Source: an uncultured Coriobacteriaceae bacterium
Lineage (GTDB): Bacteria > Actinomycetota > Coriobacteriia > Coriobacteriales > Atopobiaceae
Assembly (NCBI GenBank): GCA_902791035.1
Contig: CADAUA010000002.1
Location: forward strand, 1-64,000
Length of the DNA: 64,000 bases
Reading direction: 5' to 3'
In this document: in pieces, positions 47 to 61,077 of the stretch
How the letters are laid out: the number at the start of each line of letters is the position of its first letter
Position numbering within the stretch: the stretch's first letter is position 1
The notes under the pieces: generated by a model
Seen by the model: the letters and a program-made list of their open reading frames with translations, nothing else
Told to the model about the DNA's origin: nothing
The model's database searches: none
Program-made: the position numbers and the translations under genes

Positions 47-139
47 GAAATAACGGACAGATGTTGGCGAGGGGCGACTGCAATCCTGCGGTTTTGTCGT
101 CGCGCGGCGGCTGGCGGCACGACTTGTGTCCGTTATTTC
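47..139. repeat. 13-bp inverted repeat around an 67-bp spacer
   Basis: GAAATAACGGACA at 47-59 is exactly complementary to TGTCCGTTATTTC at 127-139. The arms are AT-rich against a very GC-rich flank. The element lies downstream of the minus-strand gene at 246-974 and has no T-run, so it is not an obvious terminator. Bases 1-46 are a low-complexity run of GGC/GGGC. Nothing coding is supported in 1-245. Confidence 0.55.
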
Positions 140-13555: not shown

Positions 13556-13597
13556 GATTTGTACCGGATTCGTACCGCCTGGGGATTCCTAGCATAA

Positions 13598-13651
13598 GAA
13601 AAGAGCGCTTCCGCTTGTAGATTTACCGGCATCTACCTGCGGAAACGCTCT
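13598..13651 (-). terminator. Terminator of tRNA-Leu with internal GCAGGTAGAT motif
   Basis: A long hairpin with arms AGAGCGCTTCCGC (13602-13614) and GCGGAAACGCTCT (13639-13651), extended by GTAGAT/ATCTAC. Read on the minus strand the stem ends in CTCTTTTCTT. It lies just past the tRNA-Leu 3' end. Its minus-strand loop side carries CGCAGGTAGATGCCGGT, a 17-mer that recurs at 41592-41608. Confidence 0.8.
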
Positions 13652-13663
13652 CCGAAGAAATCA

Positions 13664-13750: not shown

Positions 13751-13911
13751 GTGCTGTGTAATAGTACAACAAGTCTCGGCGCTTGGGGGCGAGAATTTCT
13801 GTCGACTTCTGGAAAGGGTGATAAGCCCCACACCTCGACCAAACCTGCAGGGGATGCGAGTTCACCCGAGGTCTGGGCCGGATCGCAGGGATGGATCGCG
13901 GCAGAGCCGAG

Positions 13912-14133
13912 GCGAACTTCAGGTTAGTAGAGCGCGGCCAGACCCGTCGGGGGCGAACTCCAGGTTAGTAGAGTCCAGTTATGATTTGATCCCACATAAT
14001 CGCAGGTAGACGAATTGTTACCTCGCCCATAACACTCTACTAATCTGAAGTTCGTCTACGTCCGCCCAAGAGGCTCTACTAACCCGAAGTTCGTCTACGT
14101 CCGCCCAAGAGGCTCTACTAACCCGAAGTTCGA
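13912..14133. repeat. Inverted repeat arrays around an AT-rich core
   Basis: Two direct copies of GCGAACTTCAGGTTAGTAGAG (13912, 13953) face three inverted copies beginning CTCTACTAA (14035, 14074, 14113; exact 39-bp period, last two nearly identical). The core between them (13974-14034) is AT-rich and carries ACATAATCGCAGGTAGA (13994-14010), the motif shared with 41586 and 51538. No gene is supported. Confidence 0.85.
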
Positions 14134-14514
14134 GGCCGTCGCTGCCGAGAGGGAGCGCCAGGCGTCGAGGTGCGCTCGGCAAGCCGCACCCCAGTGGGCC
14201 GTTTCGGGCTTCCCACCTCGTCAAAGTGCCGATAAGGTGCATCGTAAGCCCGTATACGCCCGATTGCTGCACCCTAACCGGGCAACCGCGACCCCCCAAG
14301 CACCTCGCGGCGTCAGTAGGGTGCAACCTTCCACTGCGAGCTGGCTACGGCGCGCACCCCATCGCACCCCGTGAGCGAGAAATGCGTGCCAAGGGACCGG
14401 TAGGGTGCCGCCTGTCCCCGCGTCCGCCACACCACGCACAGGCCACCCCCCGCCCTGCGGTAGAATTGATCCCACCGGCACCCCGTCACACCCCAAACGC
14501 AACCGAGGAGGGCC
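14134..14514. other. Kinase-operon upstream region, no gene seen
   Basis: Contains scattered TAGGGTGC and GCACCCTA words (near 14271, 14318, 14401) in both orientations, which may be further small palindromes. A TAGAAT hexamer at 14461-14466 could be a -10 for the kinase gene starting at 14515, with no convincing -35. Confidence 0.4.
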
Positions 14515-31789: not shown

Positions 31790-32215
31790 ACCTGCTCGCA
31801 CGAACCTGAGCGTCGAGACATGCTTAGCCGGGTCTAAGCATGCATTCTTGCCCAAGCCCAAGCGTCCGGCCACGTTTAAGTCGGGCTAAGCGGGTGGCCC
31901 TTCCCGGTCCTGGAGAGGGACGGGAAGAATGGGACGCTTAGCGCGGCCTAAGCGGGAGGTTCTTCCCGCCGCGGGAAAGTCGGGACGCTTAGCGCGGCCT
32001 AAGCGGGAGGTTCTTCCCGGTCCTGGAGAGGGACGGGAAGAATGGGACGCTTAGCGCGGCCTAAGCGGGAGGTTCTTCCCGCCGCGGGAAAGCCGGGACG
32101 CTTGGCGCGGCCTAAGCGGGAGGCTCTTCCCGCCGCGGGAAAGTCGGGACGCTTGGCGCGGCCCAAGCGGGGCGATTGTCCCGAATCGGGAAGGATGGGA
32201 CGGTTAGGCGGCGCA
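31790..32215. repeat. CGCTTAG...CTAAGCG repeat array, locus 2
   Basis: A head section (31,818-31,900) carries ATGCTTAGCCGGGTCTAAGC and a diverged unit. Five regular units of about 51 bp then have CGCTTAGCGCGGCCTAAGCG-type palindromes starting near 31,935, 31,986, 32,048, 32,099 and 32,150, alternating with CTTCCCGCCGCGGGAA-type palindromes. The last unit ends at the stop codon of the minus-strand gene at 32217. The head is shared with the array at 45,040. Confidence 0.9.
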
Positions 32216-39473: not shown

Positions 39474-39624
39474 TGTCATCCCTCTCAGACGGGTGCGTAC
39501 GCGCGGCCGCGGCGGCGCGTTTGGGGCCCTGCCCCAGAAACTCCAGTATAGGGCAGGCCGGTTGTGGGTACGGGGCCAGCCACAAAGCACACGGATGGCC
39601 CGCGTGGCGCAGGGACCTGCGCGG

Positions 39625-39902
39625 GCACCTCGGTCCTGCCTGTCACGGCACCTCGGTCCTGGGTGTCCCGGCACCTCGATCCTGGCTGTCACGTGTCACG
39701 GCACCTCGGTCCTGGCTGTCACGGAGCGGCGTACCGATGTCGCATTCGACAAGCAGCCGGTCGGGTCATCGCGGCCATCGCTACCGCCGCATACGTGTCG
39801 CGAGTTGCATCCGCGCACGGGGGGCGCCGCGGCAGCCTGACGGTTGCCGTCAAAGTGGGACACCCAGGACCGAGGTGCCGGGACACCCAGGACCGAGGTG
39901 CC
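39625..39902. repeat. GGCACCTCGGTCCTGG 23-bp repeats, inverted arrays
   Basis: Four direct copies of GGCACCTCGGTCCTGGCTGT plus CAC (39625, 39647, 39670, 39700) face two inverted copies (39857-39879, 39880-39902). The two arrays can pair as arms around an insert of about 135 bp (39723-39856). The whole lies between dnaB (stop 39923) and purA (start 39473). No gene is seen in this 449-bp gap. Confidence 0.9.
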
Positions 39903-39922
39903 CCCGTCCGCCTCCCGCGTCG

Positions 39923-41499: not shown

Positions 41500-41585
41500 C
41501 CGTTCTTACATTCTCCAAACCTGGCTTTTATTCACGCGTCTCGCCCTATTGCCTGCTCAATCCCCGCAATATACGCTTCGGTTTA

Positions 41586-41673
41586 TATAATCGCAGGTAG
41601 ATGCCGGTGTTAGATGCATTTAAGGTGTCCAGGTATAAGAAGGTCCCGCAGCCGAACGGGCGTGCGGGACCTT
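41586..41673 (+). ncRNA. Possible small RNA: TATAAT motif to hairpin
   Basis: A perfect TATAAT (41586-41591) is followed by CGCAGGTAGATGCCGGTG and, 50-80 bases on, by the hairpin AAGGTCCCGCA/TGCGGGACCTT (41640-41650/41663-41673) ending CGGGTTT. This layout could give a plus-strand RNA of about 80-90 nt. There is no clear -35. The hairpin may equally be the terminator of rplI on the minus strand. The motif is shared with 13994 and 51538. Weakly supported as RNA; well supported as a conserved motif. Confidence 0.3.
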
Positions 41674-45039: not shown

Positions 45040-45400
45040 ACATGCTTAGCCGGGCGTAAGCGTGGCTACTTGCCCAACTCCGAGCGCCCAGCCACGCTTA
45101 AGGCAGGGCTAAGCGGGCGATTCCTCCCGAATCGGGAAAGTCCGGACGGTTAGCGAGAGCTAAGCGGCCAATCCCTCCCTGGTTCGGGAAGGATGTGACG
45201 CTTAGCCATGCCTAAGCGGGACGATCGTCCGCCATGCCTAAGCGGGACGATCGTCCCAGTTCGGGAAAGTCCGGACGGTTAGGCCAGGCTAAGCGGGCGA
45301 TTCCTCCCGAATCGGGAAAGTCCGGACGGTTAGCGCAGCCTAAGCGGTCGGGATGTCCCGCCCCGGGAAGGCTAGAACGCTTAGCGTAAGGCGTAGGGGG
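45040..45400. repeat. CGCTTAG...CTAAGCG repeat array, locus 3
   Basis: Begins with the same head as locus 2 (CATGCTTAGCCGGGCGTAAG, then CCCAGCCACGCTTAAGGCAG). About six further units with GCTTAG/CTAAGCG palindromes and CTCCCGAATCGGGA or GGGACGATCGTCC palindromes follow, at a period of 50-60 bp. One 19-base segment (GCCATGCCTAAGCGGGACG) is duplicated head to tail at 45,206 and 45,232. The array lies at the 3' side of the minus-strand DUF4013 gene. Confidence 0.88.
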
Positions 45401-50844: not shown

Positions 50845-51285
50845 CTACAGCAGGCACTCCACCTCGCCGGCCGGGGCGGGATCCGTCCAACGGAAGTCAT
50901 CGCCCTTGCCGCGTCCGTCAAACAGCGAGAAGGCCGACCAGGCGGGCGCTCCCTTCTCGCCGAACTCTAGGATCACCGCATCCTCGTAGGAACCGCGCTC
51001 GTCGGCCACGGCGGCCTCGTAGGCGATGGCGTAGCACTGCGGCTCGTGGATGCCAGCGTCCTTGTCTCCACCCTCCTTGGCCAGCTTGCGCACCTGCTTG
51101 CGCGCGCCCTCCAAGCACTCCTCGGGACCGTCGTCGGCAAAGGTGTAGCTGGCCACGTTGCCTGCGGCGTCCGCCACGGCCAGAAGGACATTCACGTCGC
51201 GGCCGGCAGCCAGCACGTCGAATGCCTGCCCCATGAGGATGCTCGAGAGCTCGTCGAGCTGCGGTGAGATGCTTCCCTCTGCCAT
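50845..51285 (-). CDS. Hypothetical cytosolic protein
   Basis: A 146-residue acidic protein with no recognised family. It has an alternating strand/helix pattern: [68 protein letters not shown], then [29 protein letters not shown]. It has no signal peptide or membrane helix. AGGGGGG lies five bases before the ATG at 51285; the upstream in-frame extension has no site and an atypical composition. It follows an AT-rich element and precedes typA's repeat. Function unknown. Confidence 0.75.
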
Positions 51286-51459
51286 GTGTGCCCCCCTGCC
51301 AGCGCAATTGCGGACGTCCACCATTATAGATGCGCGCCATGTGACGTGGCATTCACGGGATGTGGGACGCGAATCTGCCCCCGACCACATGTAAGTCACC
51401 GCTGCACTCCATCTTGTACCGTCGGCAAGGGCCCGTGCAGTCGAGGGTCGTCGATGCAT

Positions 51460-51622
51460 GACGTCAAATCGGAGTTTTTCGGTGTGCCGCTCGCGCGTCC
51501 AGACTCTGGCCGGCGATGTTCATTTGCTTTGAATTTATATTATTGCAGGTAGATAAATTATCAATTATTCATCTAATTCCGCTACCGGCCAGCGTGACAC
51601 CGAAAAACTCCGATTTGACGTC
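51460..51622. repeat. 26-bp perfect inverted repeat flanking an AT-rich core
   Basis: The left arm 51460-51485 (GACGTCAAATCGGAGTTTTT...) is exactly complementary to the right arm 51597-51622. A nested pair, CTGGCCGG near 51507 and CCGGCCAG near 51586, extends the symmetry. The centre is markedly AT-rich (TTGAATTTATATTATTGCAGGTAGATAAATTATC region, 51530-51563) with the shared GCAGGTAGAT motif. It has a MITE-like layout without coding capacity and ends 17 bases before the histidine kinase stop. 51286-51459 shows nothing else. Confidence 0.92.
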
Positions 51623-51638
51623 GTTTGCCTCCGCACTC

Positions 51639-52982
51639 CTACTTCAAGGCCTCTTCTGCCGGCTCCAAGGCTGTCGGGATCAGCATATTCACATGGAAGA
51701 CCCCGCCCTCGCACCCAAACCTCACCGTGCCGCCGTAGCGCTCGCAAATCTCCCGCATGGACCGCACGCCAAAGCCGTGCGCGGTCTTGTCGGCCTTGGA
51801 GGTCTGGGGCAGGCCGTCCGCAAAGGCCACATGGCCCTCGCAGCAGTTCTCCACGTGCACCAGCACCATACCCGCCTGCCGCCTCACCTGCAGCGATATC
51901 GTGCGTCGCCGCGGGTCGTCCAGTTGCTGGACCGCCTCGATCGCGTTGTCCATGGCATTGCCAAAGAGCGCGTAGATGTCCGAGGCTGCCATGCGTCCCA
52001 GGGCCGTCCCATCTGCGATGCAGCTCAGGGCGACCCCCTCGCGCGCGCAGATTAGGCTCTTCTCGGTAAGGATCGTGTCGAGTGCCTCGTTTCCCGTGCA
52101 GACGGCCGAGTCGTACACACTCACCTCCCCGGCGATGTCGTCCAGCACGGCCTGGTCCACGCGAGGGCCCGACCCGTCCGCCAGGTGTCGGATCTGGTGG
52201 CGGATGTCATGACACTTGATGTTTATGTCATCGATGGTCTGCCGGCTCAGCGCATACTGGCGCTCCCGCTCGGCCATGAGGCGCTGAAGCGAAGCGGTCT
52301 CCGTGCGCAGGTGCTGGTTGTAGAGCATCTCATACTCCGCAATCAGCACGTAGAGCGAGAAGCCCACCTGCACCACGCGCTGCAGCAGGGCCAGGGAGGG
52401 GTCGTTGAGGGTGCCCACGTAGCGCACCGAGAGGTCGAAGGCAGTGTTTACGAGAAGAGCCACGAAGGCCGGCGCGAACTCCCTCGCCCCGGCTTCCACC
52501 CGCAGCCCCCGCTGGCGCACCTGCCGGACCAGCGTGGCCCGCAGGACCGCTAGCAGGGCGCACGTGCAAACGGTCGCCCTCTCCAGGTTGAGCTCCGGCG
52601 CGCCCAGCCCCACGTCCGCACGGCGCAGCAGCATGCCAACGAGGTCTCCCAGCCCCGAGCCCAGGTTCTGCACCGCATAGCCCACCACGGCACAGAAGGC
52701 CGCCGTCCACAGGTCGGTCTGGTTGCAGAGCCACACGCCACACAGGCAGAGCCCCACGACTACCACGAAGTAGCCTGCTGCCAGGGTCAGAACCCCGGAC
52801 GCGCTCTCCGGCACCGTTGAGAGCGCAGGGCTCGCCAGCACGAGCGTCAGCAGGCCCACGCACGCCCCTAGCCGGAGCCCCCAGCACGACCGGTGCAGCA
52901 GCGTGGCCGCGACCATGCCCACAGGTGCCGCATAGAGAAGGGCGCCCACCAGGGGCCGGGCCATACCTACGAGCACAGACAT
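51639..52982 (-). CDS. AgrC-like GHKL sensor histidine kinase
   Basis: A 447-residue sensor. The N-terminal half (about 1-220) has six hydrophobic helices. A coiled segment (ETASLQRLMAERERQYALSRQTIDDINIK) leads to the H-box CHDIRHQIRHL with His258 the likely phospho-acceptor. A GHKL ATPase follows (N-box FGNAMDNAIEA, G-box KADKTAHGFGVRSMREI). Family knowledge: AgrC-type kinases with polytopic sensors often detect peptides or small signals and pair with LytTR regulators. Its ATG overlaps the regulator stop by one base (TGATG), confirming the pair. Confidence 0.93.
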   Translation of the reverse strand: MSVLVGMARPLVGALLYAAPVGMVAATLLHRSCWGLRLGACVGLLTLVLASPALSTVPESASGVLTLAAGYFVVVVGLCLCGVWLCNQTDLWTAAFCAVVGYAVQNLGSGLGDLVGMLLRRADVGLGAPELNLERATVCTCALLAVLRATLVRQVRQRGLRVEAGAREFAPAFVALLVNTAFDLSVRYVGTLNDPSLALLQRVVQVGFSLYVLIAEYEMLYNQHLRTETASLQRLMAERERQYALSRQTIDDINIKCHDIRHQIRHLADGSGPRVDQAVLDDIAGEVSVYDSAVCTGNEALDTILTEKSLICAREGVALSCIADGTALGRMAASDIYALFGNAMDNAIEAVQQLDDPRRRTISLQVRRQAGMVLVHVENCCEGHVAFADGLPQTSKADKTAHGFGVRSMREICERYGGTVRFGCEGGVFHVNMLIPTALEPAEEALK

Positions 52983-53692
52983 CACCGATCGCCCCCGTAG
53001 TAGTCCGCGAAGGCTCCCAGGGCCTCCTTGCGCCGGGCGCGGCTCATGGCCAGGGTCGAGCCGTCGGCCATGACCACGTTGGGACCCTCGATGGCACGGA
53101 CCTGGTCGGCGTTCACGATGCAGCTGTTTGATATCCGCACGAACTGTCCCGCCCCCAGGTCCTCGGCCACCTTTGTCAGCGTGCCGCGCACAGCCTGCGG
53201 GTCCTGCCCCTCCAGGTGATAGACGATGTTGTGCCGCTGGACCTCCACGTACAGCAGGTCCGCGAGCGGAAAGACCTTGGCCCCGTCCTTGGTGGGCACG
53301 TAGAGGCTTCGATGCGATCGCCGGCGCAGCACGCGGACGGCCCGGTCCAGGCACATGCCCAGGTCGCGCGAGGTCACGGGCTTGACGATGAAGTCCAGGG
53401 CGTTCACTTCGTAGCCCCGCACCGCGTACTGCGCGAGGTTGGTCACGAAGATGATCAGCGTCTGCTCGTCGTAGGCGCGCAGGAGGTCGGCCGCCTCCAT
53501 GCCGCTGATTCCCGGCAGGTCTATGTCCAAGAACACGAGGTCGTACCTGCCCACCAGCTCCACCAGCTCGAAGGCCGTCTTGACCCAGTCCACCTTGACC
53601 TCCAGGCCCTTGTCGCCTGCGTAGCGCTCCACCGCAGCACGCAGCTGGGCCGCCTCCTCCGCCTCGTCCTCCACGACCAAGAACCGATACAT
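52982..53692 (-). CDS. LytTR-family response regulator
   Basis: A 236-residue AgrA-like regulator. The receiver has the acid pocket VEDEAEE, phospho-acceptor Asp56 (FLDIDLPG) and Lys in FIVKPVTSRD. A LytTR domain spans about 135-230 (LLYVEVQRHNIVYHL, FVRISNSCIVNADQVRAIEG). The ATG at 53692 (MYRFLVVEDE) has GGGAGGGG four bases before it. Divergent from the GH3 lipoprotein gene across a 197-bp region, so that gene is a natural candidate target, though no LytTR site was identified with confidence. Confidence 0.94.
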   Translation of the reverse strand: MYRFLVVEDEAEEAAQLRAAVERYAGDKGLEVKVDWVKTAFELVELVGRYDLVFLDIDLPGISGMEAADLLRAYDEQTLIIFVTNLAQYAVRGYEVNALDFIVKPVTSRDLGMCLDRAVRVLRRRSHRSLYVPTKDGAKVFPLADLLYVEVQRHNIVYHLEGQDPQAVRGTLTKVAEDLGAGQFVRISNSCIVNADQVRAIEGPNVVMADGSTLAMSRARRKEALGAFADYYGGDR

Positions 53693-53889
53693 GCGTCCCC
53701 TCCGAGCCCGCCCGCTCGCCGAGAGGCGCCGCAGGGCGTGCCGCAATCTTGCCCGACCGTGCCACCCAACCTGAACTTGTTAGCACGTTTTCTAGATTCG
53801 TTCATGACGACAAGGCCCGCGCTTTCGACGGATGGCGGGTTTTGCCAGCGCAAAGGATGGGGCGTCTGCGGACGCGAAGGGAGAGCGCC

Positions 53890-56403: not shown

Positions 56404-56514
56404 CTGCCTGAACCGACCGACAGCAAAGACCCACCCGGGCCCCGGGACGCCATCTTCCCATCCTTCCTAAGGCGCTCCGGGGCCCAACTCTGTAGCGGCC
56501 GGGCACCAGGGGGT

Positions 56515-56578
56515 GCAAACACAGGGGGTACTCCCCCGTGTTTGCTGTCAAACACGGGGGAGTACCCCCTGTGTTTGC
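56515..56578. repeat. GGGGTACTCCCC long hairpin, copy 2 (supplies a stop codon)
   Basis: Left arm 56515-56544 (GCAAACACAGGGGGTACTCC...) is exactly complementary over 30 bp to 56549-56578; loop CTGT. The arms share the GGGGTACTCCCC core with 33282-33345. The minus-strand glycerate kinase gene reads into it and stops at 56548-56550, so its last nine or ten codons come from the element. Confidence 0.93.
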
Positions 56579-57723
56579 ATTCCCACCCGCACCAAAGCAA
56601 AGGTCCGGTCCGCCGCAAGCGAGAAGTTCCTCTCGGCATGGGCCAGCACGTCCTCCACGGAGCAGGGCTCGAGCACGGTGGGCACGAGCGCGTCCACCCC
56701 ACAGGCCAGGAGCTCTGTGGCGTCCGCGTCCATGCCGCCCACGATGGCCACGCAGGGTATGCCTGCCCGCCGGCACCGCGCCGCCACGCCGCTCACCACC
56801 TTGCCATGGACGGATTGCGCGTCTGCGTGGCCCTCCCCCGTCACACAAAGGTCGCTACTGGCAAGAAGCCCGTCGAAGCCCACGAGGTCCAGCACTTGCT
56901 CTATGCCCGGCACGAGCTCGGCATCAAGGTAGCAGAGGGCCGCCGCGCCGAGGCCACCCGCCGCGCCCGCACCAGGCACGTCGGCCACCGGCCGGCCGAA
57001 GGTCTGCTCGAGCACCGCGGCGTAGGACCGCATCCCCTGCTCCAGCTGGGTCACGACCTCGGGGGAGGCTCCCTTCTGGGGCGAGAAGACCGCCGCGCAG
57101 CCACGTGGCCCCACGAGCGGGTTGTCCACGTCGCACATCACGTGGAAGCGGGCCTCCCGCACGCGCGGGTCCAGGCCGGCCAGGTCGATCGCGGCCACAT
57201 GCGCCAGGTCTTCTCCGCAGCCAGCGAGCTCGCAGCCCTTGTCGTCGAGCAGGCGGGCGCCCAGCGCGCGGGCCATGCCCATGCCGCCGTCGTTGGTGGC
57301 CGAGCCGCCGATGGCGAGCGACACGTCGCGCACCCCGCGGGCGAGCGCGTCCTCGATGAGCTGCCCGGTTCCAAAAGTGCTGGTACGGCGCGGGTCGCGG
57401 AGCTCGGCCGGCACGAGCGGCAGTCCCGACGCCGCGGCCATCTCTATGACGGCACGGCCTCCGGGAAGAAGCCCGTAGCTGGCCCGCGCGGGCTCGCCCA
57501 AGGGGCCCGCCACCTCCACAGTGGCGAGCCCGCCGCCCGTAGCCGCCACAACCGCCGCGACGGTACCCTCGCCACCGTCGGCCACCTCTACCGCACGGCA
57601 CGTGGCGCCCGGCAGCTCGCGGGCCGCGGCGGCAGTGAGCAGCTCCCCCGTCCGCGCCGACGAGATCGTCCCCTTGAATGAGTCGCACGCAAACAGCAGG
57701 TGCAAGTGATTGTTGTTGCTCAT
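56548..57723 (-). CDS. Glycerate kinase
   Basis: A 391-residue glycerate kinase type-1 family protein (GlxK/GarK). N-terminus LLFACDSFKGTISSARTGELL, then VADGGEGTV, ETAAASGL-like IEMAAASGLPLVP, IGGSATNDGGMGMARALGARL, CDVDNPLVGPRGCAAVFSPQKGA, and VTGEGHADAQSVHGKVVSGVA. It phosphorylates D-glycerate for entry into glycolysis. The final residues (roughly GMQTQGVLPRV) are encoded by a palindromic repeat, so the natural C-terminus was altered by its insertion. AGAGG precedes the ATG. Convergent with the GH3 gene. Confidence 0.95.
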   Translation of the reverse strand: MSNNNHLHLLFACDSFKGTISSARTGELLTAAAARELPGATCRAVEVADGGEGTVAAVVAATGGGLATVEVAGPLGEPARASYGLLPGGRAVIEMAAASGLPLVPAELRDPRRTSTFGTGQLIEDALARGVRDVSLAIGGSATNDGGMGMARALGARLLDDKGCELAGCGEDLAHVAAIDLAGLDPRVREARFHVMCDVDNPLVGPRGCAAVFSPQKGASPEVVTQLEQGMRSYAAVLEQTFGRPVADVPGAGAAGGLGAAALCYLDAELVPGIEQVLDLVGFDGLLASSDLCVTGEGHADAQSVHGKVVSGVAARCRRAGIPCVAIVGGMDADATELLACGVDALVPTVLEPCSVEDVLAHAERNFSLAADRTFALVRVGMQTQGVLPRV

Positions 57724-61010: not shown

Positions 61011-61077
61011 CGTGTCAGGGGGACGGTTCTCTTGACACGCCGTCATGGCGTGTCAAGAGAACCGTCCCCCTGACACG
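61011..61077. repeat. 31-bp perfect hairpin, GTGTCAGGGGGACGG family
   Basis: 61011-61041 (CGTGTCAGGGGGACGGTTCT...) and 61047-61077 are perfectly complementary over 31 bp; loop GTCAT. A partial copy (GTGTCAGGGGGACA) precedes it at 60997. It fills the gap between two co-directional oxidoreductase genes, so it would form a very stable structure in a shared mRNA. Related tandem units are at 50783-50827. Confidence 0.95.

Follow-up and report, generated by a model that had tools for sequence, protein, structure and literature searches.

We propose that the palindromic element at 51460–51622 of the window (the whole 64-kb stretch of DNA analysed here) probably belongs to a two-part system: it would be a REPIN-like palindrome that is non-autonomous, and its partners a family of nuclease-like proteins unrelated to the RAYT transposases. 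Its arms are dispersed across the genome in pairs, the arms of such elements are specific to individual genes of the family, core motifs are shared between elements, and the proteins are predicted to adopt a Vsr-like fold, in which the catalytic E and D residues are conserved. So far, most dispersed palindromes in bacteria have either been attributed to RAYT transposases or lacked an explanation. Here they are linked to another class of enzyme, at the level of single genes and in genomes from across a bacterial family.

The window element and its copies in the genome

The architecture of the element is as originally predicted: its 26-bp arms match exactly and enclose a 111-bp interior with a nested CTGGCCGG/CCGGCCAG pair (Table 1), and we agree that the element has no coding capacity. 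In 100 shuffles of the window, 0.00 occurrences of the arm are expected. The AT-rich centre was likewise recovered, with 40% GC at 51500–51599 as opposed to ~62–69% in most adjacent 100-bp intervals. Homology extends beyond the arms, most half-sites of the family running ~23 bp outwards to a GAAGTAG box, which to the right of the window element overlaps the stop codon of a histidine kinase gene (51639–51645) and to its left is degenerate.

Table 1. Features of the window: the element, its parts, its neighbours and further elements of the same system
Feature	Positions	Strand	Remarks
Palindromic element, arm to arm	51460–51622	.	Longest copy of the ten, at 163 bp
Left arm, 26 bp	51460–51485	+	GACGTCAAATCGGAGTTTTTCGGTGT; family consensus GACGTCAAATCCGAACTTTTCGGTGTC
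Right arm	51597–51622	-	Exact reverse complement of the left arm
Type-B core motif ATTTATATTATTGCAGGTAGATAAAT	51533–51558	+	Profile score 31.1; common to elements with other arms
Nested CTGGCCGG	51506–51513	+	Paired with CCGGCCAG at 51585–51592
Outer half-site, ending in GAAGTAG box	51623–51645	-	TAG is the kinase stop codon
Left outer half-site, degenerate	51437–51459	+	From half-site comparison
GHKL histidine kinase gene	51639–52859	-	One neighbour of the element
LytTR response regulator gene	52982–53746		Accompanies the GHKL histidine kinase gene
Small conserved gene adjoining typA	50845–51285	-	Other neighbour of the element
Element of the same system	47–139	.	Arms GAAATAACGGACAG, as beside family gene C5:64468
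Element or cluster	13910–14141	.	Five arms GAACTTCAGGTTAGTAGAG, as beside C6:149177; type-B core at 13990

How widely is this arm pair distributed? Across the 2.69 Mb of this Atopobiaceae genome (37 contigs), we found nine intact arm pairs and a tenth that is split by an insertion sequence (IS). A 55-bp half-site model retrieved exactly 20 arms genome-wide, all paired and with no solo arm among them, making ten elements; a 21st, weak match (E 0.135) falls within one of the 20, on the opposite strand. The arms are thus not unique, and the copies occupy tandem, convergent and divergent gaps between unrelated neighbour genes. From arm to arm, they measure 141 bp (six copies), 142, 152 (two) and 163 bp. 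The length steps of ~11 bp correspond to about one helical turn, a phasing argument that amounts to a hint only, because there are just ten lengths and most of them are 141. The paired-arm element folds into a strong hairpin, and the inner arms within one element are more alike than shuffled pairs (p 0.0007). The cores of the ten copies are mostly diverged or unrelated, while the arms are conserved.

The last two of the 20 arms lie at the ends of contigs C24 and C27. Each of these ends has 98–99 bp in common with the ends of two further contigs, and the flanks of the shared ends match as 8-bp duplications—CAACCACA for C24/C27, GGGGCCTC and ACTTGGCC for the other two copies—from which we conclude that an insertion sequence is present in three copies, one of them within the tenth element. 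Once the IS and one target duplication are subtracted, this element is exactly 141 bp long. The IS is a later insertion, with ends that differ from those of the element. Its three copies, at contig ends C24/C27, C9/C13 and C3/C18, have the ends GATCGTGTCC..GGACACTACC and 8-bp target duplications; judged by these ends, it is possibly IS256-like.

Core motifs and searches in relatives

Several of the ten cores share a motif, CCGACTTGTGGGGCG (type C), in either orientation. For the window element, the informative motif is another one. A profile (type B) was built from the core motif of eight elements with other arms (for example, ATTCATATAACTGCACGTAGATGAAT), and within the 64 kb its best site is the core of the window element, with a score that none of 2000 core shuffles reached. 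The other high-scoring sites in the window lie at 13990, which belongs to the training set, and at 41581; the next score is 11.0. The AT-rich core is a type-B motif that is used by other arm families and is here combined with C15-type arms, the parts of the elements being modular, with arms and cores combining across families. The original prediction had read the base composition as a pointer to foreign origin or a strong functional constraint; since the core is a type-B motif that also occurs in other-armed elements of this genome, its AT richness is explained and a foreign origin is not needed. The motif at 41581–41606 (GTTTATATAATCGCAGGTAGATGCCG), in the gap separating rplI from dnaB, lacks flanking inverted arms and may therefore work alone or be a remnant. 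A compact hairpin adjoining a tRNA gene (13596–13656) also contains CGCAGGTAGATGCCG.

Allowing up to one mismatch, we found no match to the arm in 139 genomes of the same family; the exact arm pattern had none in GTDB r220 contigs or IMG/VR viral contigs, and matches of the half-site model in relatives were at chance level. In Olsenella relatives, the palindromes in the orthologous gap are different ones, and their centre, GCCAACTGGGCAAACG (type A), is conserved. As SSCAACTGGGCAAAYG, this centre is present in 53 of 140 family genomes, with up to 43 copies in a single one, while a reversed-motif control gave two matches in total. In many of the sampled loci, it sits between inverted arms whose sequence varies by genome, and at several, two same-arm elements ~1.2–1.5 kb apart flank one gene. 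The genes flanked in this way are homologous to one another, and another homologue adjoins the copy of the window's arm pair on contig C15 of this genome. A gene of this family lies within 1.5 kb of six of 30 type-A loci, as opposed to none in 146 kb of control sequence, and in G040, a motif-rich genome, the arms beside one family gene recur in similar form in several dispersed copies.

Exact copies of the GCCAACTGGGCAAACG-type centre number up to 43 per genome in G036, G040 and other relatives, some of them in tandem with ~112-bp spacing (G036, contig C38). Homology between the type-C and type-A motifs was considered and dropped as weakly supported, the observed sum being 70.5 and the highest among 500 shuffles 70.0. 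Four loci of Olsenella relatives (L135, L137, L140 and L141) carry a palindrome of another arm type, and a fifth, L139, has the same gene pair without it. Set against these, the L139 gap is suggestive of an empty site, in intergenic DNA too diverged to define the ends; no clean empty site was found.

A predicted nuclease family and its palindromes

A profile of seven sequences detected 14 family genes in this genome and members in 23 of 24 genomes checked (range 0–17), those within a genome being mostly highly diverged paralogues. An AlphaFold2 model built with 35 sequences had a mean pLDDT of 78, rising to >90 in most of the Vsr/EDxHD-like domain. In this model, residues 188–304 match the domain of the homing endonuclease I-Bth0305I (3r3p; Z 10.1 over 96 residues), and the predicted catalytic domain also matches 3hrl (Z 9.6). 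A profile search of the PDB gave the same top match (3r3p, E 1.7e-4; AbaSI, 3.5e-3); Foldseek alone returned no significant E-value for the family model. E191 and D236 are invariant in all 35 members and D263 is found in 33. Judging from these results, the C-terminal part is a Vsr/EDxHD-like catalytic domain and the protein a predicted nuclease. The N-terminal region is possibly AbiEi-like: its model weakly matches the AbiEi antitoxin 6y8q (Z 3.8 over 113 residues), and PADLOC weakly assigned AbiEi to one of the 35 members. General libraries recognized MTES_1575 in three and DUF559 in two of them, and neither Pfam, NCBIfam nor PADLOC provided a confident name for the family. Phage records contained no match to it and plasmid records one. 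A member in Collinsella aerofaciens, annotated as hypothetical protein only, is closely followed on its downstream side by a palindrome whose arms measure 38 bp.

Many family genes are accompanied by palindromes of their own. Of 40 family genes, 19 have a repeat common to both flanks that scores higher than the 99th percentile of mismatched flank pairs, against an expectation of 0.4; in the case of L182, one of these 19, the best flank match is a tRNA, an arm-matched pair being present as well. In this genome, TGTCACTTGCAGGTG occurs on both flanks of C1:79427, AATAACGGACAGA on those of C5:64468 and GAACTTCAGGTTAGTAGAG on those of C6:149177, and in relatives, the genes at L178, L179, L182, L185, L188 and L197 have same-arm elements up- and downstream. 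Long-loop palindromes are found near nine of the 13 genes in this genome and 15 of the 27 from relatives, as compared to 5/87 and 8/198 control pieces, each half the length searched per gene; two of the 13 own genes have no palindrome nearby. Overall, arms and protein identity are weakly correlated (Mantel r 0.15, p 0.047). TAACG-type arms accompany more similar proteins (p 0.00025), in a pattern that was picked post hoc and does not correspond to a single clade in the tree; for another class of arms, GTGNACAC, no such relation to protein relatedness is seen (p 0.34). At C2:204700–208500 (L211), a tandem array of CGACCCAAACCTGACTTGTGCGGCGGG units, resembling the core motif of other copies, lies on both sides of a nuclease-family gene.

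No family gene is contained in the 64-kb window. The likely cognate of the window element is C15:55693–56862, an assignment based on one adjacency and the general rule above: a copy of the element lies ~120 bp from the start codon of this gene, on its upstream side, and on that side only. Taken alone, this adjacency could be due to chance, with a probability of about 0.03–0.12 according to our own estimate from the numbers of genes and gaps. The assignment of these arms to the C15 gene is the weakest link in the case for the window element.

Proposed mechanism, alternatives and known systems

What might such a system do? Its first part would be the diverged nuclease-like proteins, with their Vsr/EDxHD-like C-terminal domain and possibly AbiEi-like N-terminal region, and its second the inverted arms, each type specific to one nuclease gene and placed around a core with one of a few shared motifs. 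Many family genes keep at least one element of their own alongside, with further copies scattered in intergenic DNA. We infer that the protein would bind both arms, either as a looped duplex or as an extruded hairpin, that its Vsr-like domain would nick or cut at the element, and that repair or strand transfer may then copy the doublet elsewhere, as RAYTs are thought to spread REPINs. More tentatively still, Coriobacteriia might harbour a novel class of selfish DNA: Vsr-like nucleases that have diversified, each recognising a palindrome of its own, would spread miniature palindromic elements via cut-and-repair or a homing-like process, in a chemistry unrelated to that of any known transposase. 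If the nucleases do process their palindromes, genomes would have an independent route to gain dispersed palindromes. If true, this would explain many unannotated palindromes of Olsenella-like genomes and provide a natural set of protein–DNA pairs in which to study how nuclease specificity diversifies.

The main rival reading is that of a regulon, in which a DNA-binding regulator controls its own gene and other loci via the palindromes, the copies being regulatory sites rather than mobile DNA. In line with such operators, an element lies upstream of the C15 gene, the N-terminal region has its weak match to an AbiEi antitoxin (Z 3.8), and length steps of ~11 bp are expected if two sites face the same side of the helix. 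However, elements are also found downstream of family genes, the ten copies lie in gaps of all three orientations by unrelated genes, and the lack of a match in any relative argues against a conserved regulon. We therefore consider this explanation unlikely.

Less probable again is an ordinary MITE family, spread by an IS that is now lost or missing from the assembly, with the neighbouring nuclease gene a coincidence. That the element is MITE-like was the original prediction, and as far as dispersal goes, the ten paired copies among unrelated neighbours support it. MITEs, of which the Correia elements of Neisseria are an example, share with our elements the ~26-bp terminal inverted repeats, a length of 140–165 bp and the absence of genes. 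Two expected hallmarks did not turn up: target-site duplications, of which visual inspection on either side of the ten copies, whose outer ends are provisional, revealed none, and an autonomous copy with the same ends. All 20 arms are accounted for, and no transposase gene belonging to the element is bordered by any of them; instead, the evidence points to a Vsr-like nuclease gene beside one copy. Moreover, the cores are not homologous throughout and mostly unrelated, yet the arms are conserved, unlike in a decaying MITE, and coincidence sits poorly with the general rule of arm-matched palindromes at family genes.

That the element serves the histidine kinase gene as a terminator, or as structured RNA in its 3′ untranslated region, is very improbable: the inner palindrome does start 17 bp past the kinase stop codon and would fold very stably as RNA (z = −7.9 against 200 shuffles), but its loop spans 111 nt, no T-run follows the stem on either side, no Rfam family reached its gathering score in the element, and nine other copies lie by unrelated genes, one of them between divergent genes, so that the arms are not those of a simple, unique kinase terminator. 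Sub-threshold, microRNA-like Rfam matches merely reflect the long hairpin.

A GTAG tag at the foot of REP hairpins is a feature of REPINs and REPtrons. The GAAGTAG box of our elements is found on most half-sites, but lies ~15 nt outside the inner arm and is degenerate in several. In a REPtron, REPIN doublets flank a RAYT gene and further copies are dispersed (PMC3116915, PMC2817692, PMC3733652). The system described here is similar in that short palindromic doublets are scattered through intergenic DNA, genes are flanked by their own repeat type with several unrelated types per genome, and the unit is a doublet, not a single arm. It differs in that the partner is a Vsr-like nuclease rather than a Y1/HUH tyrosine transposase, the arms are longer, the loops of 20–150 nt contain shared core motifs, and copy number is low (ten). 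As the defining RAYT enzyme is missing from these loci, we do not class the system as a REPtron; by architecture alone it would be a variant of that kind, and its novelty lies in the pairing with an unrelated enzyme class.

With EDxHD homing endonucleases such as I-Bth0305I and with Vsr, DUF559 and MTES_1575 nucleases, the family shares the catalytic fold and key acidic residues, as predicted here. In contrast to these, it was not seen in an intron or intein, has an extra N-terminal region, and comes with gene-specific palindromes and their dispersed copies. The literature we searched, in which few subscription papers were covered, held no report tying Vsr-like or DUF559 nucleases to palindromic repeats.

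Five Y1_Tnp genes that are RAYT-like, diverged and extended at the C-terminal end are also present in the genome (C31:5525, C23:20896, C17:32611, C4:86083 and C1:438491). A link to these was rejected, none of the five being flanked by the arms studied here or by long-loop palindromes. The genome is palindrome-rich, and further strong inverted repeats of several kinds are present in the window at 31921–32081, 39620–39906, 45101–45316, 56509–56584 and 61011–61077.
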